From a virus: 20,421 nt of DNA. Positions 459-14,515 of this stretch are shown one piece after another. The stretch lies in IMG/VR virus record IMGVR_UViG_3300025769_007585, positions 1 to 20,421 of that record. One strand, written 5' to 3'. A model generated the notes under the pieces. That model searched no databases, was not told where the DNA came from, and saw only the letters and a list, made by a program, of their open reading frames with translations. The stretch's first letter is position 1, and the number at the start of each line of letters is the position of its first letter. Both the position numbers and the translations under genes were made by a program.

Positions 459-2097
459 TTAAATTTCTCCTTAAAGTTTCCCACTCGTTCCATTGGTTTC
501 TTAGAGCCTTAAAATCTTCGTAAGCATCTACTACGTTATAGTCTTCGTATTTGTCCATGTTTGGCACATGAGATTCGTTAAAATAGTAATCTTCTTCAGA
601 ATTTTTTACCCTATAGCCAAATGTGCAGTCTTTCATAGCTTTTGACCATAAAAAGCCACCTATCCACTCTGGTTTAAATAAAACTTTTTCAAACAAAAAG
701 TTAACCTGCTCTCTTAAAGTTTGCAGATTCATTAAATCTTCAACAGGACTTGGTTGAATAATCTGCGGCTTGGATCGCCAAGTTTCATCGTCAGATTTTA
801 TTGGAATTGACTTAAAGTGGTCTATCCAAATTTCAGCAGTTTTATCCCAATTGTAATGAGACATTGCGTCTTTACTCATTTGCTTGCCTCGTTCAAAGAG
901 CTTTAGATTGGCATCCTCGCCAAGCGTTGAGTCCATAACCTTTGCAAATTCTTCGAAACTAGGAACTGCTCTGAGACAACCAGTTTCACACTCTCTTGTG
1001 TAGGCTAACGGCTCCATGCAAATGCCGTTAATATTGCTCATCACGGACTCCATTGCCGAATAGTTTATTGCTGCCACAGGAGTTCCGCAAAACGCCGACT
1101 CTAATTGAGGCATACCAAAACCTTCGCTGTTTGCGTATTGCACATACAAATCGTGCATTTTGTATATGTCGCCTAGCTGATATCCGTCTATAGGGTTTCT
1201 TACGCCCACTAGTTTTTTTGCAAATTTACCGCAGGAATCGCAATGACATACGCTGTCTTTGTAAAAATCAATAGACACATTGTCACATTTAATACACTTG
1301 TACGTAAACAAAACTCTATTGCTTAATTCATATTCGTTTAAAAGTTGTGGAATTTCCCAACCAATATCTGGATAATAAGTATGACAATGAAGAAACGTGT
1401 TGTTTACACCTTTGTTATTGTCTAGCCATTTTCTAAAGTGCTGGAACAAATCGGGAAATAATTTTCTACGCTGATTTCTTCCAACCATACCTACGATAGT
1501 GGCATTTGGATCTAGCCCCATAGCAGACTTGTGCTTTAGTTTTGATGCGTATTCTGGGCATGGATAAAAGTGTTCTGAATTTGCAGCAGGAGAAGCTACT
1601 CCTGACACTTTGATATCAGAGCATTGATCTTCAAGAACCCTCTGACCAAACTCAGAATAAGTCATCAAGGAGTCCGCAGACGCAAAGGTGTTGATCCACT
1701 GGGGATTTTGCGGCATTGCGTCAACCGTTGGCATTAAACACCAGTGAAATAGATTTCTAAACGGAGATCGTTGCTGATATTCAAACATCCACCAATCACG
1801 AATGTCCATAACAATATCTGGACGAAAGTGAAGCAACACCTCGTTAAAAGTCCTTTCTCCGAAAACCTGAGAAGCAGAGCGTTCATAAGCAGTATCGTTT
1901 TCTAAAGGTTTGTTGGGATAAACTCTCCACGGTCTAGGCTCTTTTTTAATGTCGTTTTCCGTTACATAACAGGCCAACTCCGCAACTTCAAACTCTGGAA
2001 CTTTGTGAAGTCTAGACAAAATTTCATTACCATAAACTCCATATCCAGTGTTCTTGGTGGATGATTCGTTTACCCAAAGAATTCTTTTCTTTCTCAA
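451..2097 (-). CDS. GT-B (GT4-like) glycosyltransferase with inserted zinc ribbon
   Basis: This 548-residue protein is a GT-B-type glycosyltransferase. The N-terminal half opens with a strand and glycine-rich loop (ILWVNESSTKNTGYGVYGNEI). The C-terminal half starts at a GMVGRNQRRK segment near residue 203 and carries the EX7E donor-site motif SEGFGMPQLE near residue 326, followed by GTPVAAINYSA. Between them, at about residues 265-292, there is a CxxC and a CxCxxC cluster that looks like a structural zinc ribbon and is not part of a standard GT4 domain. The start is TTG, chosen because AAGGAG lies seven bases upstream and the codon overlaps the SSB-like stop (TTGA). About 120 residues follow the EX7E region and I cannot assign their tail. 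The donor and acceptor are unknown. Its neighbours are a methyltransferase and replication genes. Confidence 0.8.
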   Translation of the reverse strand: MRKKRILWVNESSTKNTGYGVYGNEILSRLHKVPEFEVAELACYVTENDIKKEPRPWRVYPNKPLENDTAYERSASQVFGERTFNEVLLHFRPDIVMDIRDWWMFEYQQRSPFRNLFHWCLMPTVDAMPQNPQWINTFASADSLMTYSEFGQRVLEDQCSDIKVSGVASPAANSEHFYPCPEYASKLKHKSAMGLDPNATIVGMVGRNQRRKLFPDLFQHFRKWLDNNKGVNNTFLHCHTYYPDIGWEIPQLLNEYELSNRVLFTYKCIKCDNVSIDFYKDSVCHCDSCGKFAKKLVGVRNPIDGYQLGDIYKMHDLYVQYANSEGFGMPQLESAFCGTPVAAINYSAMESVMSNINGICMEPLAYTRECETGCLRAVPSFEEFAKVMDSTLGEDANLKLFERGKQMSKDAMSHYNWDKTAEIWIDHFKSIPIKSDDETWRSKPQIIQPSPVEDLMNLQTLREQVNFLFEKVLFKPEWIGGFLWSKAMKDCTFGYRVKNSEEDYYFNESHVPNMDKYEDYNVVDAYEDFKALRNQWNEWETLRRNLNA

Positions 2098-2408
2098 CTT
2101 CGATCTCCTTGTTCGGTGTTGTGCAGTATTTTAAAATTGGTGATTCTAAACCAAGTTTGATCCACATCACCTCTAGCTATAGCTTCGACCACAATTTCAG
2201 AATTTTCGCTTAGGTACTGACTCAAAGCATAAGCCGCAGAGTGCCACGCTTCCATTTGAAGACAATTTGCCTCTCTTACCTTTTTACCATCTCTAGTCTT
2301 TCTATATTCATCAACTTCTAGCACAAACTCGATAAAAGACGGGTTTTCCGAATCTCCGCTTGAGTATCGAATGTCCGTAGCCCTGCCTAAAAAATGACAC
2401 TTATTCAT
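2094..2408 (-). CDS. SSB-like OB-fold single-stranded DNA-binding protein
   Basis: The 104-residue product follows the bacterial SSB/PriB OB-fold plan. It opens MNKCHFLGRATD, like the MNKVxLIGRLxxD start of SSB. Next come a strand FIEFVLEVDEYRK, a charged hairpin, a CLQMEAWHSAA strand matching the 'fi.vv.w...A' region, the YLSENSEIVVEA strand and a final FRITNFKIL strand. It probably coats single-stranded DNA at the fork. It is short for an SSB and ends at GDRS directly after the OB fold, without the acidic DDDIPF-type tail through which bacterial SSBs recruit partners. A weak AAAGG site precedes ATG 2406-2408. The gene follows the C-terminal polymerase gene by nine bases and its stop overlaps the glycosyltransferase start. 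Confidence 0.7.
   Translation of the reverse strand: MNKCHFLGRATDIRYSSGDSENPSFIEFVLEVDEYRKTRDGKKVREANCLQMEAWHSAAYALSQYLSENSEIVVEAIARGDVDQTWFRITNFKILHNTEQGDRS
2105..2110 (-). promoter_or_regulatory. Shine-Dalgarno deciding the TTG start of the glycosyltransferase
   Basis: The minus strand reads AAGGAG, then ATCGAAG, then TTG. The match and the seven-base spacing support TTG 2095-2097 as a true start, placed in a 4-base stop/start overlap with the upstream SSB-like gene. Confidence 0.7.
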
Positions 2409-2417
2409 ATCAACCTT

Positions 2418-3998
2418 TCAAATATGTTTAACATTATTAACAATTAATGATTTTTTATCCTTTTTGGAAATTTCTCCACAGAGTAAAACTGTGTTGTTTT
2501 CGATTAAAATATGTTTACTACTACCGTAAACATCTGGGAAAACAGTAATATCATCCAAAGATCCGGTAGAATCTTCTACAGTTAGAAATGCCATTTCTTG
2601 TCCCGGATTATCACCCTTCTTTGTTTTAACAACTTTAATAAAGTTTATTTCAACAGCTAAGTTAACTTTTCCAGAAACGGCTCGGTTTTCTAAATCTCTA
2701 CACGAATAAGTTGCTACAGATAAATCAATCGCGTCTAACTTACTGCAAGTCAGAGCACAACTCATATACTTTTCTTCAGCCATAGCTAAACTTCTCGGGT
2801 TATCTTCAATGTCGTAAAATGGGTTATCTAAAGCATCTTTGATATCAACCAATGTCAACATTCGTTTTTTGTTAACAGTGATGGGCGACCTGCCTTCTAT
2901 GAGATGACCAATAGCTTCAGACAAATTCGATGCGTGACAGCTAGGATCGCTATAATTATGAACTATCGCACCCCGCTCTCTTGCTGTCAAAAGTCTCCAG
3001 CTATCATATTCGTACAACATAGTCGCTCTACTCAAGCGATTATTTTTACCATTAAAAGCACCAACAGAGATCATAGCAATTGTCGCTCTTTTGTTGATAT
3101 TAAGCTCGTTAATCAACCTAATCAAACAGTCCATCCAAGTATAATCGTTCACGTCTCCATGAGTTTCTTTTAAATTGTTTATTTTCTCACACTCTTTAGT
3201 GCCTACATGCTTAACGTGGTTTAAGCCATAGTAAATAATATTCTTGTCGGGATGCCTAGTAAAATCAACATAGAGGTGTTGTAGCCTCGGAGGTAGCACC
3301 TCAATGTCGAATTTTTTAGCATCCATAATCAACTGCTTTTTCTCAATATCGGGCTTAGGCTTTCTGTCTGCACGATCTAGGTACTTTTCAAAAAACTTTT
3401 TTACACGATGAGTTTTGCAGTAAGCAGACCAATAAGCATTGATAGCATAGGAAACAGCATGAGATTTATTGAAAGCATATCGAGATGACTTCTCAATCCA
3501 AGAAAATATTTCCTCAGCAACAGCAGTGCTGACGATTCCTTGTTCTTGAGTCCCTATCAAGAAGTCTTTTTTGACCTTTGCCATTAGATCAGCCTTCTTT
3601 TTACCGATAGCTTTACGTAGCCCGTCCGCTTCTTTCAGGTTGAAACCTGCCAACCTTTGAGCAATCATCATGGATTGTTCTTGGTAGACGAGTACGCCAT
3701 AGGTCTCTTTCAAAATAGGCTCCAATGATTCATGAAGGTATTCAACGGGAGAGTCTGTTTTACCAGCCTTTCTGTCCGCATAAACCTGAGTCATGCTTTT
3801 ACCATTAGCGTCTTTAGCCATAAGAGTTCCCGGCCGGATCAAACTAACCAAAGCGGCCAAATCTTTGATGTTTCTAGGCTTTGTCTGTTTAGCCCAGTGT
3901 TTACCAAGATTAGACTCTAGCTGGAACACACCTTTGGTATTACCCTCACATATCAAATCCCAAACCTTTGGATCATCAAAATTATTAATATCAAACAT
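2418..3998 (-). CDS. DNA polymerase III alpha, C-terminal half (fingers, HhH, OB)
   Basis: These 526 residues match bacterial DnaE from just after the palm domain to the OB fold. The N-terminus is MFDINNFDDPKVWDLI, equal to the LDIAxIPLDD region of E. coli DnaE. It continues with GVFQLES, the ALVSLIRPG segment, TYGVLVYQEQSM, LRKAIGKKK and the fingers signature AFNKSHAVSYA. A helix-hairpin-helix-like region (YYGLNHVKHVG) follows, and an OB fold fills roughly the last 85 residues (from VNLAVEINFIKVV to the end). No tau-binding C-terminal domain and no clear QxxLF-type clamp motif is visible. ATG 3996-3998 is preferred over TTG 4008-4010 because GAGGA lies five bases before the ATG and overlaps the TTG. 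It carries none of the palm acidic residues, so it must pair with the product of 6072-7664. Confidence 0.92.
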   Translation of the reverse strand: MFDINNFDDPKVWDLICEGNTKGVFQLESNLGKHWAKQTKPRNIKDLAALVSLIRPGTLMAKDANGKSMTQVYADRKAGKTDSPVEYLHESLEPILKETYGVLVYQEQSMMIAQRLAGFNLKEADGLRKAIGKKKADLMAKVKKDFLIGTQEQGIVSTAVAEEIFSWIEKSSRYAFNKSHAVSYAINAYWSAYCKTHRVKKFFEKYLDRADRKPKPDIEKKQLIMDAKKFDIEVLPPRLQHLYVDFTRHPDKNIIYYGLNHVKHVGTKECEKINNLKETHGDVNDYTWMDCLIRLINELNINKRATIAMISVGAFNGKNNRLSRATMLYEYDSWRLLTARERGAIVHNYSDPSCHASNLSEAIGHLIEGRSPITVNKKRMLTLVDIKDALDNPFYDIEDNPRSLAMAEEKYMSCALTCSKLDAIDLSVATYSCRDLENRAVSGKVNLAVEINFIKVVKTKKGDNPGQEMAFLTVEDSTGSLDDITVFPDVYGSSKHILIENNTVLLCGEISKKDKKSLIVNNVKHI

Positions 3999-4003
3999 TT
4001 TAT

Positions 4004-4008
4004 TCCTC
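4004..4008 (-). promoter_or_regulatory. Shine-Dalgarno deciding the start of the C-terminal polymerase gene
   Basis: The minus strand reads GAGGA, ATAAA, ATG. The site overlaps a possible in-frame TTG at 4008-4010, so that TTG is unlikely to be the start and the ATG at 3996-3998 is favoured. Confidence 0.65.
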
Positions 4009-4012
4009 AAAA

Positions 4013-4321
4013 TTAATACGTTTTATGCTTTCTTTGAATAAACTTTCCAGCATCTAACTCTTCGCCGTTATTAGCGGCATTAACAATTTCCACAACCTTT
4101 TCGTCAATTTCATCAATCAAAACATTTCTTTGGTAATTCAAGTCACAGCACTTTTTTACAGATTCGAAAAGACTTTTCTTTTGCTCCACAGTCGTAGCAA
4201 ACTTTTGACAAAACTCTTGAAATGTCATTCGTCTAACTTCGTAGAGGAACTCTTGATTAGTCCACATCTTCATGTCAATTGTGATTAACTTATCCACCAA
4301 GCCGCCTAAAGTATCTGCCAC
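4013..4321 (-). CDS. DUF4254-like small helical protein
   Basis: The 102-residue product starts at GTG, which shares one base with the stop of the formyltransferase gene (TAGTG); AAGGAG lies six bases upstream. The sequence is mainly helical. It has the pattern LGGLVDKLITIDMKMW at the N-terminus, then CCDLNYQRNVLIDEID in the middle (residues ~58-73), which resembles the 'tigsLvDKL.i...K.WH ... N..Rn.LieEID' pattern of DUF4254. That family has no established biochemical activity that I can cite, and in bacteria it turns up near surface-glycan genes. The family match is from memory. The position directly behind a formyltransferase suggests a shared pathway. Confidence 0.55.
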   Translation of the reverse strand: MADTLGGLVDKLITIDMKMWTNQEFLYEVRRMTFQEFCQKFATTVEQKKSLFESVKKCCDLNYQRNVLIDEIDEKVVEIVNAANNGEELDAGKFIQRKHKTY

Positions 4322-5010
4322 TATAATCTCCTTAAAATATCTTTATTTATTAATGTGAATTTTTCCCCATCAATCTCAATATAAGCACCATCGTGTGGGG
4401 GACACCAAAACGCTCTACATTTTCTATCTACAGTTTCTTTATCATCAGATGGAAGAATACGAGATTCTTTTAACATTTTAGACTTTGAGTAATACGCACC
4501 TTCATCTAAATCGCTTTGCTTTTCTGCTTCATTAAAAAACACATCAAACTCATTAGTAATCTTTGTTAAGATTCTTTCAAGAGATAACTCCATAATAGTA
4601 TGAGTTTTATCTCTTAGAGATGTCACAGTTTCGTCTTTTCTTATTTTACACTTTGCTGTTTTGTATAAAATATCTCCACAGTCTATATCTTCGGCAATCT
4701 TATGAACAGTGGCGTACCACTCTGTTTCGTTGTTAAGGATACCGAAGTTGTAAACAGCAAACCCTCTGTATTTAGGCAGAGGTGCGGGGTGGAAGTTGAT
4801 CCCTCCGAAAGTGGTTTTATTTACAACTGACATTGGAATTTTGTGAGGAAACAGGTATGAAAAAACCAAGTCGTATGTTTCATCAATTTTCTCAACATCT
4901 TCTTTTTGTGTGAATGTTACCACTTGATCAAAACCAAAATACCGAATAAACGCCGGGATGCAGTGCGTTTGTCCTAGTATGTCAATTGGTACGAGTAATG
5001 CAATTTTCAT
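4321..5010 (-). CDS. Formyltransferase (sugar N-formyltransferase/Fmt-like)
   Basis: The 229-residue protein has the formyltransferase catalytic core. The signature NFHPAPLPKYRG supplies the catalytic asparagine (N72) and histidine (H74), and EDIDCGDIL supplies the aspartate (D110). These are the Asn-His-Asp triad of enzymes that move a formyl group from N10-formyltetrahydrofolate to an amine. The N-terminal strand KIALLVPID fits the fold's first strand. The size and the GFAVYNFGILNNE segment look closer to amino-sugar N-formyltransferases than to full-length Met-tRNA formyltransferase (about 310 residues), but the end (CRAFWCPPHDGAYI) recalls the Fmt C-terminal subdomain. The acceptor is unknown. 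The gene lies between the exonuclease and the DUF4254-like gene, inside the gap between the polymerase halves. Confidence 0.8.
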   Translation of the reverse strand: MKIALLVPIDILGQTHCIPAFIRYFGFDQVVTFTQKEDVEKIDETYDLVFSYLFPHKIPMSVVNKTTFGGINFHPAPLPKYRGFAVYNFGILNNETEWYATVHKIAEDIDCGDILYKTAKCKIRKDETVTSLRDKTHTIMELSLERILTKITNEFDVFFNEAEKQSDLDEGAYYSKSKMLKESRILPSDDKETVDRKCRAFWCPPHDGAYIEIDGEKFTLINKDILRRL

Positions 5011-5019
5011 TTATAAACC

Positions 5020-5706
5020 TTATTCAATAAAGAACTTGTTATTAGCAAACGAGTTTTGAAAAGTAATCTTTTGCGACATTTTTCTCTGCATTTTGAGAAA
5101 CTTAATAAGAATATTAGCCGTATCCTTAACATCTTGCAAAGCATCGTGAGCGTTGTCCGAAGGCATACCAAAAAATTCACGCATGTAATCCATGCTCATT
5201 CCTGTAGCGTCACCATTATCTTCAAACCAGCAATAAATGTGTTGCATCAAGTCCATTGTAAAAATGGGGTTAAATAACTTCTGCTGCTCCTTCTTTTTAT
5301 CCCACGGGCCAAATGCCTTGCAAAGACGGTCTACAATAACCATATCATACGAGTTGATGTTGTAGCCTGCCGCAATAGGTGCATACCAACCAGTGCCTTT
5401 GTAGTTAAATTGGTTTACCCATTGAGAAAACTTATTCCAAACAGTTTTGGGCATTGGCCCCTTGGCAATTTCTGCTCTGGTTTTTCTAGTGACTTCTAAC
5501 GCTTTGTCTTCTACCGGACTAAACCCAGCGGCAATAGCTTTTTCGTCATCCACAATACAACGCATCTTGCTTTCAAAGACACCTCCGGGTTGAAGGGTTA
5601 GTTTACGCGGATGAATAGCTACAGCAGCAATCTGTGTAGGCTGACACGTATGAGGATTGCGACCTGTGGTTTCAAAGTCAAATACGATTATATCTCTATA
5701 GTTCAT
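5020..5706 (-). CDS. DEDDh 3'-5' exonuclease, probable proofreading subunit
   Basis: The 228-residue protein belongs to the DnaQ-like DEDDh family. ExoI is seen as FDFETTG with D10 and E12, ExoII as GYNINSYDMVIV with D121, and ExoIII as NAHDALQDVKDT with H187 and D192, so all five catalytic residues are present. It removes nucleotides from 3' ends. Its place between the two halves of the Pol III alpha gene makes it the likely proofreading (epsilon-like) partner. About 35 residues follow the exonuclease domain and could be a docking tail, although I see no clear clamp motif. GGAG, overlapping the stop of the small lipoprotein gene, precedes ATG 5704-5706. RNase T- or ExoX-like roles are alternatives. 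Confidence 0.88.
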   Translation of the reverse strand: MNYRDIIVFDFETTGRNPHTCQPTQIAAVAIHPRKLTLQPGGVFESKMRCIVDDEKAIAAGFSPVEDKALEVTRKTRAEIAKGPMPKTVWNKFSQWVNQFNYKGTGWYAPIAAGYNINSYDMVIVDRLCKAFGPWDKKKEQQKLFNPIFTMDLMQHIYCWFEDNGDATGMSMDYMREFFGMPSDNAHDALQDVKDTANILIKFLKMQRKMSQKITFQNSFANNKFFIE

Positions 5707-5714
5707 AGCCTCTC

Positions 5715-5855
5715 CTAGTAATTCTGATTATTTTCCAACATTTCAAATTTCTGATCAACACTCAAAGGTGCTGGCTCAGGTTCCGGTAAACACCCCCAAA
5801 CGCTCAACACAATCATCACGCAAAAGAATAAGCCGATAGCTCTCAAAAAATTCAT
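5715..5855 (-). CDS. Small lipoprotein-like peptide, 46 residues
   Basis: A 47-codon gene (with stop) fills what would otherwise be a gap. AGGAGG lies five bases before ATG 5853-5855 and is part of the end of the preceding gene, whose TAA stop falls inside the spacer. The product begins MNFLRAIGLFFCVMIVLSVW with a charged N-region and a hydrophobic core of about 15 residues. A cysteine follows (VWGC at residue 22) in a lipobox-like setting, then a short acidic, proline-rich tail (LPEPEPAP) and 20 polar residues. This suits a lipoprotein signal peptide with the mature part outside the inner membrane. Tryptophan at -2 is not a classic lipobox residue, so a plain membrane peptide is possible. 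The function is unknown; small outer-membrane spanins have this general form, but no inner-membrane partner is seen. Confidence 0.7.
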   Translation of the reverse strand: MNFLRAIGLFFCVMIVLSVWGCLPEPEPAPLSVDQKFEMLENNQNY

Positions 5856-5857
5856 AA

Positions 5858-6082
5858 TTACCTCCTGTTAGATAGTTTTAAAAACGCATCAGTAGCTTCA
5901 CCAAGATCTTGGTATAAATCGTAAACCTTATGCCTATCAGACCAAACTTGATACTTTTTTCTTGGTATAAAATTTCCCATCATATGATCTGCTAGATTGC
6001 ATAGGGAAGTGTTGTTGCTACTTACAACCATATGGCCTTGGTAAACAACGGCCATAATTTCTTCTTTATTTTCAATTTTCAT
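5858..6082 (-). CDS. Hypothetical protein, 74 residues
   Basis: I do not recognise this protein. Its start ATG 6080-6082 overlaps the end of the N-terminal polymerase gene by 11 bases. GGAG lies about ten bases upstream, slightly distant; an in-frame ATG at residue 10 is a less well supported alternative. The product is soluble, mildly basic and rich in aromatic residues in the second half (KYQVWSDRHKVYDLYQDL), with no cysteine cluster or membrane segment. It is the first of five genes between the two polymerase halves. Confidence 0.7.
   Translation of the reverse strand: MKIENKEEIMAVVYQGHMVVSSNNTSLCNLADHMMGNFIPRKKYQVWSDRHKVYDLYQDLGEATDAFLKLSNRR
5861..5866 (-). promoter_or_regulatory. Full-consensus Shine-Dalgarno for the small lipoprotein gene
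   Basis: The minus strand reads AGGAGG, TAATT, ATG. TAA is the stop of the upstream gene (5858-5860). A perfect site with ideal spacing is strong support that the 46-codon frame is translated. Confidence 0.75.
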
Positions 6083-7664
6083 TACTGCTGATCTCCATTA
6101 TTTTAGATAAAAGGTCAATGCCTAAAACGTCAAACTTTACATGACCTTGAATTTCCAAGGGGTTCATTTCAAATGCTACTATAGGATCTCCTGAACTATC
6201 AATAGTTACAGGGCAAACATCTTTTAGCGAATGTTTCGAAATAATCACACCAGCGGGATGTTTACCCTGAGACTTTTTAGTTCCCTCAATAAGCATAGCT
6301 TGTTTAAACAACGATGCTAGTGGCCCAGTTAAATTCTTGTCATCATCATAATAACACCAGTTCTTTAGTTCTTCAGATTGATTTTCTAAAGCCCACTTGA
6401 TAATCGACTTGTCTTCCATTAATTCAAGCTGATCAGATATCATTGCTTCGTCTGGTATACTCTTAGTTATCATGTTCATTTCGTCAAAAGACACAGAATT
6501 ATTTACTCTTAACACTTCTTTAATAGCAGATCGCCCTTGGAGTCTGTTATAAGTGATCATTTGGGCTACATTATCTTGACCGTATTTTTTCTTAATGTAT
6601 GCTATCACTTCATCTCTATGCTCGGCGGGAACGTCCATGTCGATATCAGGAATAGCCACATTACCATCAGTATTTCGACCTTCGTTATAAAATCTCTCAA
6701 AGATTAGGTCGTACTCAACAGGGTCTACGTCCGTAATATCAAGCAAATATGAAACCAAGCATCCAGCAGCAGACCCTCTTCCCGGACCCGCGAGCCAATT
6801 TTGGGATTTAACCCATTTAATAATGTCCTGAACGATTAAAAAATATCCAGACAACTGAGCTTTAAAAATAACTTTCAACTCATGCTTGATTCTTTCTGCA
6901 TAAATATCCTGCTGCTCCTTGGAATTAATCTTTCCTTGGGGCAACAGCTTGTTTTTCCACCCGTCTCGACATAACTGTGTAAGCCAGTCATCCTCTGAAT
7001 AACCTTCAGGGCAATCAAATGTAGGAAAAGAGGGCTGATCCGCAAGATCATACTCTTCACAACGATCCACGATACGCCAGATGTCTTTTTCTCCAACTGT
7101 TGACACGCTTTTTGTAAGAGTTGTGTTTTTGTCAGTTAGATAAAACGTATCGTTACCATCAAAAAACTGTTTAAAGTCATGATCAACGTTTTTGATTTTT
7201 TTAAAATCAGTTTTCAGCTTGCCACAAAGCATGATTCTATGGCACTCAGCCTCTTCTGGAGAAACGTAATAGATCGCTTGTGCTTCATAATCAAGCTGTA
7301 CATGGTTGCCTTTAAAAAGATTGGCAAATCCGTTAGAATCAGAAGTTACGCAAAGAATATTGCCATTTTTTGCTATTTGTTTTAAAACATCTAAATTCTG
7401 ATTGGAAACATACTTAACTAGATCAAACCAACCGTCTTTGTTTTTAGCGTACAAAATATAACCGTCAAATTCGCAACCAATGATCGCTTTGACTCCGTTC
7501 TTTTTGCACTCTTGCTGAAACTCAACAGCACCCGAAACTGTTCCGAAATCAGCAATACCGCACGCGGTGTAACCATATTCGGCACACTTTTGTGCTAGTT
7601 TATCAGTTTTACAAAAACCATGCTGCAAGCTAAAATGAGTCTTGCAGTTAATCGGATTCCACAT
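6072..7664 (-). CDS. DNA polymerase III alpha, N-terminal half (PHP and palm)
   Basis: The 530 residues align with DnaE from its N-terminus through the palm. Residues 1-70 are the PHP domain. Its metal-binding HxHxH position reads P-I-N-C-K-T-H, so the usual histidines appear lost and PHP nuclease activity is unlikely. The palm has GPGRGSAAGCLVSYLLDITD (293-312), the catalytic pair in PDIDMD (D342, D344) and the third aspartate in KFDVLG (D512), which matches E. coli D401, D403 and D555. The conserved GKHPAGVIIS segment is at 468-476. The protein stops 18 residues after D512, exactly where DnaE has a variable linker before the fingers; the rest is encoded at 2418-3998. GGAG lies eight bases before ATG 7662-7664. 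The start overlaps the upstream zinc protein gene by 17 bases. Confidence 0.93.
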   Translation of the reverse strand: MWNPINCKTHFSLQHGFCKTDKLAQKCAEYGYTACGIADFGTVSGAVEFQQECKKNGVKAIIGCEFDGYILYAKNKDGWFDLVKYVSNQNLDVLKQIAKNGNILCVTSDSNGFANLFKGNHVQLDYEAQAIYYVSPEEAECHRIMLCGKLKTDFKKIKNVDHDFKQFFDGNDTFYLTDKNTTLTKSVSTVGEKDIWRIVDRCEEYDLADQPSFPTFDCPEGYSEDDWLTQLCRDGWKNKLLPQGKINSKEQQDIYAERIKHELKVIFKAQLSGYFLIVQDIIKWVKSQNWLAGPGRGSAAGCLVSYLLDITDVDPVEYDLIFERFYNEGRNTDGNVAIPDIDMDVPAEHRDEVIAYIKKKYGQDNVAQMITYNRLQGRSAIKEVLRVNNSVSFDEMNMITKSIPDEAMISDQLELMEDKSIIKWALENQSEELKNWCYYDDDKNLTGPLASLFKQAMLIEGTKKSQGKHPAGVIISKHSLKDVCPVTIDSSGDPIVAFEMNPLEIQGHVKFDVLGIDLLSKIMEISSNEN

Positions 7665-9763: not shown

Positions 9764-10858
9764 TTATATTCCTTTAATATAGGGGTAAATTTCATTTTTT
9801 ATATCTTCAATCGTCATATTTCCTAAATCTCTTTGTTTTTTAGGAACGTCTCGTTCTTCAAACCAAGGCTCTAAATCTGGTCTGATTAAATTAAATCTTC
9901 TTCCGCATTTCTTAACTATGCCTTCAACAGCTTTTTCACCAGCCTCATCGTAGTCTGTTAAAATAACCACATTCAAAGCTCCAGACTTTTCTAACAGAAT
10001 CAGTTGATCCTCGCTTAAAGATGTTCCAAAAATGCCTACAGTCATTTCTAACCCAGCTTCGAAAGCTCTCCAAACATCACCTTGACCTTCTACCAGAATA
10101 ACGGTTCCTGTTTCCATAATTCTTTCTTGAGCCAAGTTCAATCCGTATAAAATATTTTTATTAAACCCTTTGCTATGCAGCCACTTTGGTTGCAAATGCT
10201 CTTTGATAGATCGACCCACGCACCCTACATAATTGTGTTCTTCGTCATACAGAGGAACTACAACCCTTCCAGACATTGGCTGATTCTCTACCAAACACTC
10301 TCCAACATCAAAAGCCTCTAAAACTAATTGAGAATAACCTCTGTTTAAGTAATAATTAGCTGGTATATGCAGCTTGTTTCTGATCTCGCCTCTGTTTATG
10401 GCGGCGGGTCTTCTCTCAATCTTTCTGCTAAAAATATCTAAAACCTTGTTTTGCCTTGTTGGAGTCAAGCTCAACTCGGAAAGGTCAGCGTTTAAAAACT
10501 TTGATAGAAATGCAGCCGTTTCGTTCATTGAAACTGGTCTACCCCTATTTGTAGTTAAACAACCTCTAACGAAACCAAACAAATTGCTTACATACTCTTC
10601 TTCACAATGAGCAGTCCAGCAAGTCCAGTTTCCCTTTTGAGTATCACCATCGGTAAAAATGCAACAACCTTCTGGGCTATCGCCACCATGAATAGGACAT
10701 GGAAATGCAACCCTATTATGAAAGTTTAAAAATTCAATATTAAAATAATCTAATAAACTCTCTAGCTTGCAAAACGCTGCTTCGTTAATCGCTGAAATCA
10801 TCTCCTTCGTCAATGTCTGCGATTTCGAACCCTTCTTCGTTTGTTCTGTTTGATTCAT
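9764..10858 (-). CDS. DnaG-type primase
   Basis: The 364-residue protein has a CHC2-type zinc-binding domain (C54, H57 in CPIH; C80 and C85 in CWTAHC) and then a TOPRIM domain with the glutamate in VILVEGQGD (E257) and the DxD pair in ILTDYDEAG (D302, D304). It makes RNA primers on single-stranded DNA. It is shorter than DnaG of bacteria (about 580 residues) and has no separate helicase-binding domain at the C-terminus. The chosen start ATG 10856-10858 has AAGGA nine bases upstream and gives a 74-base overlap with the helicase gene. An in-frame ATG at 10799-10801 has AAGGAG directly adjacent with no spacer, so it is less likely. The helicase and primase genes are adjacent, as expected for a primosome. 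Confidence 0.9.
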   Translation of the reverse strand: MNQTEQTKKGSKSQTLTKEMISAINEAAFCKLESLLDYFNIEFLNFHNRVAFPCPIHGGDSPEGCCIFTDGDTQKGNWTCWTAHCEEEYVSNLFGFVRGCLTTNRGRPVSMNETAAFLSKFLNADLSELSLTPTRQNKVLDIFSRKIERRPAAINRGEIRNKLHIPANYYLNRGYSQLVLEAFDVGECLVENQPMSGRVVVPLYDEEHNYVGCVGRSIKEHLQPKWLHSKGFNKNILYGLNLAQERIMETGTVILVEGQGDVWRAFEAGLEMTVGIFGTSLSEDQLILLEKSGALNVVILTDYDEAGEKAVEGIVKKCGRRFNLIRPDLEPWFEERDVPKKQRDLGNMTIEDIKNEIYPYIKGI

Positions 10859-12230
10859 GAATTTCGTTCCTTGTCAACCCTTGTTCAATTCTTCCAAGTT
10901 TTCCAAACATTTTTATACTAATGTAATCACCATCATCCAAACCTTCGCCGTGTCTAGCTACGACTGGAACTATTTTACGATCTCCATTTTCTTTACCGTC
11001 AACAGCTATTTCTTCCTCGTTCTTTAGTTTAAAGATGGAGAAGCTGGTACACAACCATATCAAACGATCAGAACCAGACACAACATCCGTTGTCTCTTTA
11101 GTTATTCCATCTCTGTTAAGCTGAACAAAAGCTAGACAGGCAACATCGTATTTTACTACAAAGTTATGCAGCTTAGTGATTTGGAATCCTAAAACCTGAT
11201 ACTCTTGCATCGAGGCACTGATGCCTTCACTGCCCATAAGTTTCAAATAGTCATAGACAATCAAGCAGTCGTTTGTTTTCCCGTTCTCGTCAAATCCTAC
11301 ATGGGTGTAAATCCATTTACGCATCTGGCTAATGATATTTTCAAAACTCTCTCCAGCGATGCTAATATAATGATAAGGGATTTTTTTAAGACGTTCAACA
11401 GCTTTGGCAACCTTTTCAGTTTCGATAGCACTTTCTGAAAACTTTCCAGTAGCAATTTTGTTAATTTCGACTCCAGAGAAATCGGCAAGAATTCTATTAT
11501 AGTGATCTTCTTTGCCCATCTCAGTATCTAGCACTAGAACTGGGATATTGTGCTTCTCAGCAACATGGGTAGCCACAGCGTCTCCCAACATAGACTTACC
11601 TACCTTTGGTCGTGCAGCGACAAGATCGACACACTTCCTGCGGAAACCTCCACCAATTGCCACATCTAAGGCAGGTAAGCCTGAAGGGATGCCAACAAAA
11701 TCAGTAACATTGTTGACTAAGTAGTCAACATAATCTTCAAGACCTTCACCAATTGTTTCTGACTTTTTGCTAGAAGACTTGTAAATATCTCCAGTTGCGT
11801 CTAAAAGTGGCTCTTCAATTCTAGCCACAATATCCATAACATCTTCATCGCCAGTAACCTCTAATAGCTCTTGCTTTGATTGTTCTAGAGTTTTCAATAG
11901 ATCACGAGACAGTTGTAGTTTTGCTACCTTTACCCCGTATTTTCCTATGTTTTCCTTGGCGATGGGAAAATTAAATAAAGACCTAATAAATCCGATTTCG
12001 TCTTTTGAGTTTATCTGCTCTGCCACACCTAGATCATTAGCCACCGACAAGATTGAAGAAAGCTCAACAGTGGTATTGTCAGATATAGACTTATAAACAC
12101 AGTCAAAGATTAACTGGTTCATTGGGTCTGTAAAACTCTGAGAAGTTAAAAAATCAACTTCTAAGTAGGCATCTAATCCGTACTGGCACATTCCCGCCAA
12201 TACTGCTCTTTCTGCCGCTATGTCTTTCAT
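10785..12230 (-). CDS. Replicative DNA helicase, DnaB type
   Basis: The 481-residue protein has the DnaB layout. An N-terminal helical domain (AAERAVLAGM at residues 5-14) leads by a linker to a RecA-like motor with GIPSGLPALDVAIGGG, Walker A ARPKVGKS (206-213), the LDTEM segment (234-238) and Walker B LIVYDYLKLM (323-332). A conserved FVQLNRDG segment follows. It unwinds DNA 5' to 3' at the fork as a hexamer. The C-terminal tail is strongly acidic (DIDEGDDFSD), and its last part overlaps the primase coding sequence by 74 bases in another frame. GAAGGT lies six to seven bases before ATG 12228-12230. The gene directly before it encodes a coiled-coil/zinc protein that could be an accessory factor. 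Confidence 0.93.
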   Translation of the reverse strand: MKDIAAERAVLAGMCQYGLDAYLEVDFLTSQSFTDPMNQLIFDCVYKSISDNTTVELSSILSVANDLGVAEQINSKDEIGFIRSLFNFPIAKENIGKYGVKVAKLQLSRDLLKTLEQSKQELLEVTGDEDVMDIVARIEEPLLDATGDIYKSSSKKSETIGEGLEDYVDYLVNNVTDFVGIPSGLPALDVAIGGGFRRKCVDLVAARPKVGKSMLGDAVATHVAEKHNIPVLVLDTEMGKEDHYNRILADFSGVEINKIATGKFSESAIETEKVAKAVERLKKIPYHYISIAGESFENIISQMRKWIYTHVGFDENGKTNDCLIVYDYLKLMGSEGISASMQEYQVLGFQITKLHNFVVKYDVACLAFVQLNRDGITKETTDVVSGSDRLIWLCTSFSIFKLKNEEEIAVDGKENGDRKIVPVVARHGEGLDDGDYISIKMFGKLGRIEQGLTRNEIHESNRTNEEGFEIADIDEGDDFSD

Positions 12231-12234
12231 TGAA

Positions 12235-12804
12235 TTACCTTCTTAAACAATTATCGCAAGCAAAAGAATCTCTAGCGTGTTGAGGGTGAACTGAAAATGT
12301 TTTACTACACCTTGAACAAATTTGATCAACTTTTTCAAATTTTTTACGTGTGCCTTTGGAAGTAATTTTAATATCTGGAGTTTCGTTTATTGAATCTTTA
12401 TGAAGAGATCCATCATCTACAAACTTATTAGATTGCGGCTTGGTGATTTGTTTTTGCAATTGTTGAATTTTTTCTGAACCTGTGTCAGCAGGTCTCATTG
12501 CAAAATTATCTAATGAACTTTCGTGTATTGGTAGGTTCTGGACTGGTACTACTGTAGCAGGCAAAGGGGATTCTAACCAGCCGTCCTTCAATACTTCTTC
12601 CTTCGTCTGCTCAGGTAAATTATCAATGGAGCCTGTCACGGGCGACCCGTTGATTATTTTCCCTAGATCATTGAACGCTTTACGGACACCCTCTACTTTT
12701 TTATTAATTTCAGATAATGTTATGTTATATTTTGAGATTTTTTCAGATAATGTAGATAAGCTGGTATTTAGCTGCTGCATATACTCTCTGTCTTTAGTAT
12801 TCAT
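12235..12804 (-). CDS. Coiled-coil protein with C-terminal zinc ribbon
   Basis: I do not recognise this 189-residue protein. Residues 5-50 are a probable coiled coil with hydrophobic spacing (LNTSLSTLSEKISKYNITL). Residues about 52-150 are polar and low in order-promoting residues. Residues 163-186 form a treble-cysteine or zinc-ribbon-like module with CSRC and CDNC pairs. AGGAG lies six bases before ATG 12802-12804, and the start overlaps the preceding gene by 11 bases. The gene is four bases from the helicase gene. An oligomerising and zinc-binding protein here could be a helicase loader or single-strand adaptor, but that rests only on position. Confidence 0.75.
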   Translation of the reverse strand: MNTKDREYMQQLNTSLSTLSEKISKYNITLSEINKKVEGVRKAFNDLGKIINGSPVTGSIDNLPEQTKEEVLKDGWLESPLPATVVPVQNLPIHESSLDNFAMRPADTGSEKIQQLQKQITKPQSNKFVDDGSLHKDSINETPDIKITSKGTRKKFEKVDQICSRCSKTFSVHPQHARDSFACDNCLRR

Positions 12805-13279
12805 TTTTTCTCCTCGCTAAGTTTGTTAGTGTATCAGCCATTTTTGTAACCCTTTTCGACTTACCTTCTAGAGTCTCAACTCTGGCTGATGCGTGATTTT
12901 TTACTTTCAATATTTCTGACGCTAGTGGATTTTCAGCAACTGCGGCGTAGTATTTGACTTGCCACTTGGTAAAATTATCACCGTAGTTATCCATCTCTTT
13001 ACTTATTATAAACCAAATTGAGGATTCTGACCACTCTAAAATATTTTTTTCTTTAACTTTTAGGGTTTCCAGATATTCCGCGTAGGAATAAAGCTCGTAA
13101 GCGTGTTCCAAACAACTTGTTCCACCAAGCCTTCTAAGTTGTTCTTGGTCTAAATTAAGGATGAAAGCCACGTTAGGATTGGATTCTACTTCTGGTAAAG
13201 ACTTAGATTTTGTCCACCTTTCTACATTACCTAGAAACTCTGACAAAAGATCGTCACATCTCTGTTTTGATGGGTTCAT
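12794..13279 (-). CDS. Hypothetical protein, possible UvsY-like recombination mediator
   Basis: The 161-residue product is helical and charged and has no cysteine motif or membrane segment. A helical stretch ELYSYAEYLETLKVKEKNIL at residues ~62-81 is followed by an aromatic segment (WSESSIWFIISKEM) and FTKWQVKYYAAVAENP, and a lysine-rich helical tail. The general form (small, helical, early 'Y..YL' helix, basic end) and the gene neighbourhood of recombinase and nuclease recall T4 UvsY, the loader of UvsX, but I see no decisive motif. The start overlaps the nuclease stop by four bases (ATGA) and the end overlaps the next gene by 11 bases. Treat it as unknown until a profile or structure comparison is made. 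Confidence 0.7.
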   Translation of the reverse strand: MNPSKQRCDDLLSEFLGNVERWTKSKSLPEVESNPNVAFILNLDQEQLRRLGGTSCLEHAYELYSYAEYLETLKVKEKNILEWSESSIWFIISKEMDNYGDNFTKWQVKYYAAVAENPLASEILKVKNHASARVETLEGKSKRVTKMADTLTNLARRKNEY

Positions 13280-13659
13280 ATTTTAGCCTCCCACTCTTCT
13301 TCTGATTCATCAAAATTAAAACTAATGATTCTAATTTCATTAATTTCACACCATTCTATTTTTTTAGCATCTCTAGCTTTGGCTCGCAAAAAATCCGCTT
13401 TGCTAGAGTAGAAGTGTTTGTTAAAAGAAAAGTGCTGCTCTCCGTGAGCTTCGACAATTAAGTTTCTACTTGGTAAGTATAAATCTGCTCTCAGTGGAGG
13501 TTTCCCCGTTCCGGCTAAAACCACCTCTTCTATGATATTGTCATGAGGAAATAATGAAACTAAAAGAGCTTTAGAACGCTCATGAAGATTCGATCTCTTA
13601 CCATAAGTAGAAGAGGGTTTCCAGTCATACTCTTTTCCGTCTAAGCCTATCACTTTCAT
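13276..13659 (-). CDS. DUF559/Vsr-like PD-(D/E)XK endonuclease
   Basis: The 127-residue protein has the compact nuclease core of the DUF559/Vsr group. It has RADLYLP (D59), LIVEAHGEQH (E70, H72, Q75, H76), then an AKARDAKK segment with R96 and D97, and a last strand EIRIISFNFDE. This is the 'D...LP..lIVE..G.qH ... RD..K ... i.ii.F' pattern of small single-domain endonucleases, some of which are free-standing phage homing enzymes. The N-terminal 50 residues (WKPSSTYGKRSNLHERSKAL) may help bind DNA. The gene overlaps the glycosyltransferase gene upstream by 35 bases in another frame and the next gene by four bases. Whether it repairs mismatches, cuts host DNA or homes is not shown by the sequence. 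Confidence 0.75.
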   Translation of the reverse strand: MKVIGLDGKEYDWKPSSTYGKRSNLHERSKALLVSLFPHDNIIEEVVLAGTGKPPLRADLYLPSRNLIVEAHGEQHFSFNKHFYSSKADFLRAKARDAKKIEWCEINEIRIISFNFDESEEEWEAKI

Positions 13660-14515
13660 ATCTAATCCTGTCTAATAAATTTTTAAAATATTCTTCTTTC
13701 AGCAAGTCTGTGTCGTATGATATCGAGCCATACTTTTCGAAAAAGGAGTCCATTAGCAGTGTAAGGTTGCAGTTCTCATACCTGCTTATAATAATCATAG
13801 GCCATATTTTTGAGAACACTCTAGTCATCCAACTGTCCTGTACGATAGGAACAGTGTTAGTTAAGATACATTCCCACATTCGAAATGTGTCTAAACCATT
13901 ACCTTTTGGGCAGATGCAGAATTGATGACGAGCTAGGTTAGTTTTAAAATCTTGAACTCCAAGTCCAGAATGGTGTAAAAAGGGCATCTTCAAATCCTCT
14001 TTTTGTCCCCGATATCTTTCAAAGAAGTGACAACTAATGTCTAACTTATCACAGTTTTCTATCGCCCATTCAGCGACTCTAATTCTATAGGGAGAAGTTA
14101 TACTAAAATTAGCACAGCATAACGAATCTTTACTTACCTCATTTTTTGCTTCTATAAAAGAGTCCATATCTCCATTGATACCAAGAGGAAGTGGGTATAC
14201 TTTTTTACCTAGATATTGATAAAGATTTGTAGTAAACCATCTTTTGGTGTTATGTTTAATAGACTTAATTTCTAAAGGAATAAATGCTCCACCATGCGTT
14301 GCATCTTCTATTCTGTAAACGGGTTGCCGCCTTCCGTGAATGTTAACTTCATCTGAACGCTTGATTCCCCAATCTCCACATTTCGTTATTAAAGTACATC
14401 CACTTTTTAAATCTGGGTAGTCTTCTTTGAGCATGTCCCAAGAGTTGTCATGACTACGGTCATTCAGGCGTTTCGTTAAGGATTTGTATAAGTTTACCGA
14501 AAACATCTTACTCAT
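13625..14515 (-). CDS. Exostosin-like (GT47-type) glycosyltransferase
   Basis: The 296-residue protein carries the signature of the exostosin C-terminal domain at residues ~196-230: HQFCICPKGNGLDTFRMWEC, then ILTNTVPIVQDSW. This is equal to the 'F.lcP.G.g.ds.R.wEal..g.iPVi..d' motif that forms the nucleotide-sugar site. The N-terminal half (WGIKRSDEVNIHGRR and PLPLGING) fits a small GT-B partner domain. No signal peptide or membrane segment is seen, so it acts in the cytoplasm. The start ATG 14513-14515 overlaps the recombinase stop by eight bases (ATGAGTAA). It sits between a recombinase and a nuclease gene, an unusual place for a glycan enzyme. Donor and acceptor are unknown. Confidence 0.75.
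   Translation of the reverse strand: MSKMFSVNLYKSLTKRLNDRSHDNSWDMLKEDYPDLKSGCTLITKCGDWGIKRSDEVNIHGRRQPVYRIEDATHGGAFIPLEIKSIKHNTKRWFTTNLYQYLGKKVYPLPLGINGDMDSFIEAKNEVSKDSLCCANFSITSPYRIRVAEWAIENCDKLDISCHFFERYRGQKEDLKMPFLHHSGLGVQDFKTNLARHQFCICPKGNGLDTFRMWECILTNTVPIVQDSWMTRVFSKIWPMIIISRYENCNLTLLMDSFFEKYGSISYDTDLLKEEYFKNLLDRIRYESDRLRRKRV

Follow-up and report, generated by a model that had tools for sequence, protein, structure and literature searches.

Gene organization of the locus

The window analyzed here is the whole 20,421-nucleotide stretch of IMG/VR virus record IMGVR_UViG_3300025769_007585, a metagenome-derived 20 kb genome fragment of an uncultivated virus. It carries the α subunit of DNA polymerase III (Pol III), DnaE, as two genes that separate the palm from the fingers. 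The two halves lie on the same strand and in the normal order, with five small genes between them. From the N half onward, the locus contains:

6072..7664 (−), Pol III α N half (PHP, palm, thumb; 530 amino acids)
5858..6082 (−), O74, a conserved small protein without an assigned function, 74 amino acids
5715..5855 (−), 46-amino-acid open reading frame (ORF), lipoprotein-like (hydrophobic start, lipobox-like VWGC, AGGAGG upstream); the fifth gap gene
5020..5706 (−), EX, a DnaQ-like (RNase_T) 3'-5' exonuclease with DEDDh residues D10, E12, D121, H187 and D192
4321..5010 (−), formyltransferase-like gene, variable gap cargo
4013..4321 (−), 102-amino-acid ORF with weak DUF4254 similarity below the cut-off, variable gap cargo
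2418..3998 (−), Pol III α C half (fingers, HhH, OB; 526 amino acids from the ATG at 3998)
2094..2408 (−), protein similar to single-stranded DNA-binding protein (SSB), directly downstream of the C half, a neighbor kept in many relatives

The C-half reading frame extends over 2418-4010 (−), with an in-frame TTG at 4010 upstream of the ATG. O74, which shares 11 nucleotides with the end of the N-half gene, is present in most close relatives and absent from others. An initial annotation of this DNA had counted the same five genes in the gap and had proposed that the halves were relocated around an inserted cassette. Their normal order on one strand leaves no mutual relocation, only intervening genes, and instead of a single inserted cassette the gap holds a conserved exonuclease gene and a variable set of sugar- or methyl-modifying genes.

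Domain content and position of the break

Profile searches assigned successive parts of the polymerase to the two products. The N product matched Pfam PHP and DNA_pol3_alpha and the NCBIfam polc model up to position 567 of 1022, while the C product matched Pfam DNA_pol3_finger and HHH_6 and polc from position 587 of 1022, confirming the junction given in the initial annotation. As annotated, the product of 6072-7664 contains PHP and palm domains with the catalytic aspartates D342, D344 and D512, all three invariant across 57 sequences; D512 aligns to residue 555 of Escherichia coli α, and the chain stops 18 residues further on. The fingers, HhH and OB domains ascribed to the product of 2418-3998 were likewise recovered, the OB domain after HhH through a weak Pfam match below the cut-off and through a structural model that aligns as far as residue 1073 of 5fku.

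In the sequence alignment to E. coli α, the N half reaches residue 563 and the C half begins at residue 591. We then compared AlphaFold2 models of the two halves, built on alignments of relatives, with solved structures. The mean predicted local distance difference test score was 92.7 for the N model and 92.6 for the C model. The N model aligned with residues 5-573 of 2hnh (Z 27.2, 492 residues, root mean square deviation [rmsd] 3.0), and the C model with residues 583-1073 of 5fku (Z 21.7, 453 residues, rmsd 9.1) and 583-910 of 2hnh (Z 17.3, 321 residues, rmsd 3.5); the rmsd of 9.1 probably reflects domain motion. Given that the models align with residues 5-573 and 583-1073 of E. coli α, the break is a short loop between residues 573 and 583, at the palm/fingers border of that protein, where the annotation had already placed it. 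The tau-binding C-terminal domain, a part of E. coli α that not every C-family member has, is absent; in the structure alignment, the last residue of the C half corresponds to about position 1073 of 1160. The PHP domain, palm with its three catalytic aspartates, thumb, fingers and HhH of a DnaE are all present; they do not form the single polypeptide of a DnaE, however, but are spread over two chains in the window and at the split loci of its relatives.

Three phage protein families (phrog_7513, phrog_13169 and phrog_12219) end near residue 331 or start near residue 339 of the N half. These boundaries suggest that in other phages DnaE may be broken at a further point, immediately ahead of the PDIDMD motif.

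The same split in related viruses

Searches of viral contigs and genomes yielded 135 split loci, a few contigs having been fetched twice, and a further search beyond these yielded more of the same arrangement. Two bacterial loci (L177 and L225), scored as split only through an in-frame stop, were left out of this count; the remaining DnaE genes retrieved from cellular genomes were uninterrupted at the break point. Three contigs from metagenome-assembled genomes also have the split, one from a Flavobacteriales bin (L155) and two from Lokiarchaeota bins (L156 and L157), although the bins may be wrong and the hosts are unproven. The C halves of L131, L132, L138 and L156 begin with a cysteine-rich, CGCKF-like extension that the window's C half lacks.

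The order at these loci is PD-(D/E)XK nuclease, N half, O74 (in some), exonuclease, C half, SSB (in some) and glycosyltransferase. The start and stop codons along the series N half, O74, EX and C half often overlap, by 4, 8 or 11 nucleotides, which suggests translational coupling. At 134 of the 135 loci, the gap between the halves includes a DnaQ-like exonuclease. At the exception, L157, the gap holds a DUF4326 gene and an ORF judged by eye to be macro-domain-like (without a Pfam match), and no exonuclease was detected in the gap or the fetched flank. Residues D10, E12, D121, H187 and D192 of the exonuclease are kept in all 57 representatives; a sequence search for a solved structure matching this protein found none.

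Other gaps carry methyltransferases, a glycosyltransferase or ThyX. Among the gap ORFs examined, no homing endonuclease was matched in the window or in the sampled large gaps of relatives, which hold methyl-, glycosyl- and other genes. Within the window, glycosyltransferase and formyltransferase genes (451-2097, 4321-5010 and 13625-14515) stand among the replication genes, similar to the sugar- or methyl-modifying genes in the gaps of relatives, and the lipoprotein-like ORF at 5715-5855 sits within a replication operon. In L142, DUF1501 and DUF1559 genes, which are typical of Planctomycetes, lie inside the polymerase gap (10716-13071), either as acquired genes or in a chimeric contig.

A fused lineage and an isolated phage

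A search for related phages with a fused gene, as the annotation had advised, found L077 and L078, in which the N and C parts share one frame and the exonuclease lies upstream. In a careful tree, L077 falls inside the split clade, below several starred branches, and a tree forcing the split sequences into one clade without L077 was 69 log units worse (approximately unbiased [AU] test, p=6e-10). We therefore rejected L077 as an ancestral fused outgroup on account of its nested position. Its junction is shorter than the bacterial linker and lacks the extra residues of the latter. Secondary fusion, with the split preceding it, is the simplest reading of L077; alternatively, the region around the junction may have come from a fused gene by recombination. 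Such a natural fusion argues for joint action of the two products.

An isolated virus, Rossellomorea phage phiT1 (PV767480.1; L241 3986-7268), has a polymerase divided into gp20 and gp18, with the break at the same point between palm and fingers. It is ~34% identical and differs in its gap, which holds a 49-amino-acid ORF and no exonuclease. A common origin of the phiT1 split with that of the window's clade was neither supported nor rejected (AU p=0.415). We did not accept Bacillus phage KLEB27-3, KKP_3916 or vB_BpsS-140 as examples of the same split, as these phage DnaE genes break at other points; in KLEB27-3 (L235 1836-6206), DnaE occupies two genes with an HNH endonuclease between them and is broken within the fingers domain.

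A probable polymerase of two permanent subunits

We consider it about 85% likely that the window encodes the replicative polymerase of a phage-like virus as two permanent subunits that assemble in trans without covalent joining. Assembly in trans had been put forward in the initial annotation and is the best-supported reading of the 135 loci, the purifying selection on both halves, the nested fusion and the gene content of 16 large relatives (83-224 kb). Each of these 16 has exactly one palm and one fingers domain, and PolA and PolB were found in none of them; as none of the 16 is rated complete, this absence is not final. The annotation had named a full-length polymerase elsewhere in the genome as a finding that would speak against it, and none turned up in this set.

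Three points weigh against two permanent subunits. The window's own genome may encode a second polymerase outside the 20 kb fragment. No beta clamp was found in the 16 large relatives, so that a host clamp would be needed. Moreover, the fused lineage amounts to one sequence in two identical contigs.

If the two-subunit reading is correct, one operon would supply an N chain with the PHP domain, the palm with its three catalytic aspartates and the thumb, a C chain with fingers, HhH and OB, and a proofreading exonuclease. Each half would fold alone, and the two would dock through the palm-fingers interface to give a working DnaE-type α. The exonuclease would probably bind on the side of PHP, in the manner of E. 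coli epsilon, and take charge of proofreading, since PHP has degraded nuclease motifs in the lineage of the window: at window 7460-7664, LHxHS and TDHG have changed to CKTHFS and ADFG, both of which deeper branches retain in the original form. The degraded PHP motifs and the intact exonuclease fit proofreading by a separate exonuclease.

A variant of the two-chain polymerase, in which the exonuclease is a structural bridge within an obligate three-subunit core, is possible but doubtful. It is favored by the near-constant position of the exonuclease between the halves and by its fully kept active site. Against it stand L157, with no detectable exonuclease in the gap or flank, and L077, whose exonuclease lies upstream of the fused gene; moreover, synteny alone shows no bridge.

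Inteins, introns and the palm/fingers break

Alternatively, a cryptic split intein or splicing of the RNA might still unite the halves into an ordinary one-chain DnaE. Introns often break phage genes, an example being terL and nrdD of the Jug phage, which group I introns restore (PMC12363816), and a true split intein occurs at another site of the same protein in relatives of the window. Nevertheless, no Rfam intron family was found in the window, and in many relatives the stop codon of EX overlaps the start of the C half by 4-23 nucleotides, leaving no room for an intron at the break. We rejected an intron on these two grounds. The initial annotation saw no intein residues at either inner end, and we concur: no intein family in the Pfam and NCBIfam profiles matched either half, a short variable tail precedes the stop of the N halves, and a short leader opens the C halves. 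We thus regard joining of the halves as very improbable.

The split intein in the relatives interrupts DnaE at FNK/SHS and consists of an IntN of ~95 amino acids starting with cysteine, a separate nuclease ORF and a short IntC before SHS. The nuclease ORFs match NUMOD3 (in L005), DUF559 and Vsr-like families. The loci are:

L005 3530-6443
L077 4334-9020
L142 13958-16841
also L068, L079 and L262

The FNK/SHS site lies four residues further downstream than the intein site of cyanobacterial DnaE. The annotation had stated that the break is not at the cyanobacterial site, with the FNKSH motif intact; both statements hold for the window, and what needs amending is that this motif is itself the split-intein site in several relatives. 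With the palm/fingers break and the FNK/SHS split intein together, the polymerase is in three pieces in L005, L068, L079, L142 and L262. A contiguous intein occurs at IRPG/C of the fingers domain in L265 (8322-10679) and L262 (8473-10062), so that L262 has both inteins.

Selection on the two halves

The halves might also no longer make up a replicase, being in decay or each serving a purpose of its own. Split genes can be steps toward loss; no result here points to decay. Pairwise ratios of nonsynonymous to synonymous substitution (dN/dS) for the N half, exonuclease and C half were 0.005-0.16, mostly 0.02-0.09, with several pairs saturated at synonymous sites. We rejected decay on these low values, which, together with the invariant catalytic residues, contradict the decaying halves that the annotation had named as a possible refutation. 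Decay and separate purposes alike also sit poorly with the lack of another replicative polymerase in the 16 large relatives and with the nested fusion, and we judge the whole explanation extremely improbable. Finally, although the window and its relatives are metagenome contigs, an assembly error or a frameshift, both considered in the annotation, or a binning error can be dismissed given the same break at 135 loci from many samples with differing gap contents, in independent contigs and in the isolated phage phiT1.

Comparison with known split polymerases

Split phage polymerases are already known. The T4-like Aeromonas phages 25 and 44RR encode, as here, a replicative polymerase in two genes without known joining, and the gp43A and gp43B of phage 25 co-purify and polymerize (PMC2988022). 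Those proteins, however, are of the B family, with a split tied to a homing endonuclease or an untranslated insert, whereas the present split concerns the C family, a proofreading exonuclease gene and a broad clade. In group 2.2 jumbo phages, a minimal Pol III α is split into NTP-binding and template-binding proteins (Iyer et al., 2021; PMC7824862), so that a C-family fold is again divided in two. By contrast with that form, which lacks the other Pol III domains and is encoded by distant genes beside a PolB, the polymerase described here is an almost complete DnaE that includes PHP, HhH and OB and is encoded in a single operon. The palm/fingers two-chain DnaE is thus a new variant of split phage polymerases.

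To our knowledge, nearly every replicative polymerase of the Pol III family is a single chain; in cyanobacteria, which are the exception, an intein re-ligates the chains. The cyanobacterial DnaE is likewise encoded by two genes, but a split intein ahead of the CFNKSHS motif joins its parts; the break in the window lies ~170 residues earlier, without an intein and with FNKSH intact. In 2009, Dassa and colleagues reportedly described metagenomic genes that are fractured and carry split inteins together with Vsr-like nucleases. The six FNK/SHS loci resemble that arrangement, whereas the window's palm/fingers break has neither an intein nor a homing nuclease. The only cases mentioned in a survey of ~2000 bacterial genomes are the intein splits of cyanobacteria and a small number of fragmented sequences, mostly explained by frameshifts (PMC3919608). 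Within a partial literature collection, we found no report of a palm/fingers split in this phage clade.

Our findings make it likely that a large virus lineage has kept a permanent two-chain C-family polymerase through deep divergence, the proofreader gene lying between those of the two chains, a state reversed once by fusion and elsewhere broken again at a split-intein site, giving three-gene polymerases in which only one break is re-ligated. They also serve as a warning that automatic annotation lists polymerases of this kind as fragments. If the two-chain form is indeed widespread, old and stable, a replicase can work without a covalent link between palm and fingers, biochemistry and engineering would gain a natural split enzyme, and a tree would allow one to trace how a gene split arose, persisted and was reversed.
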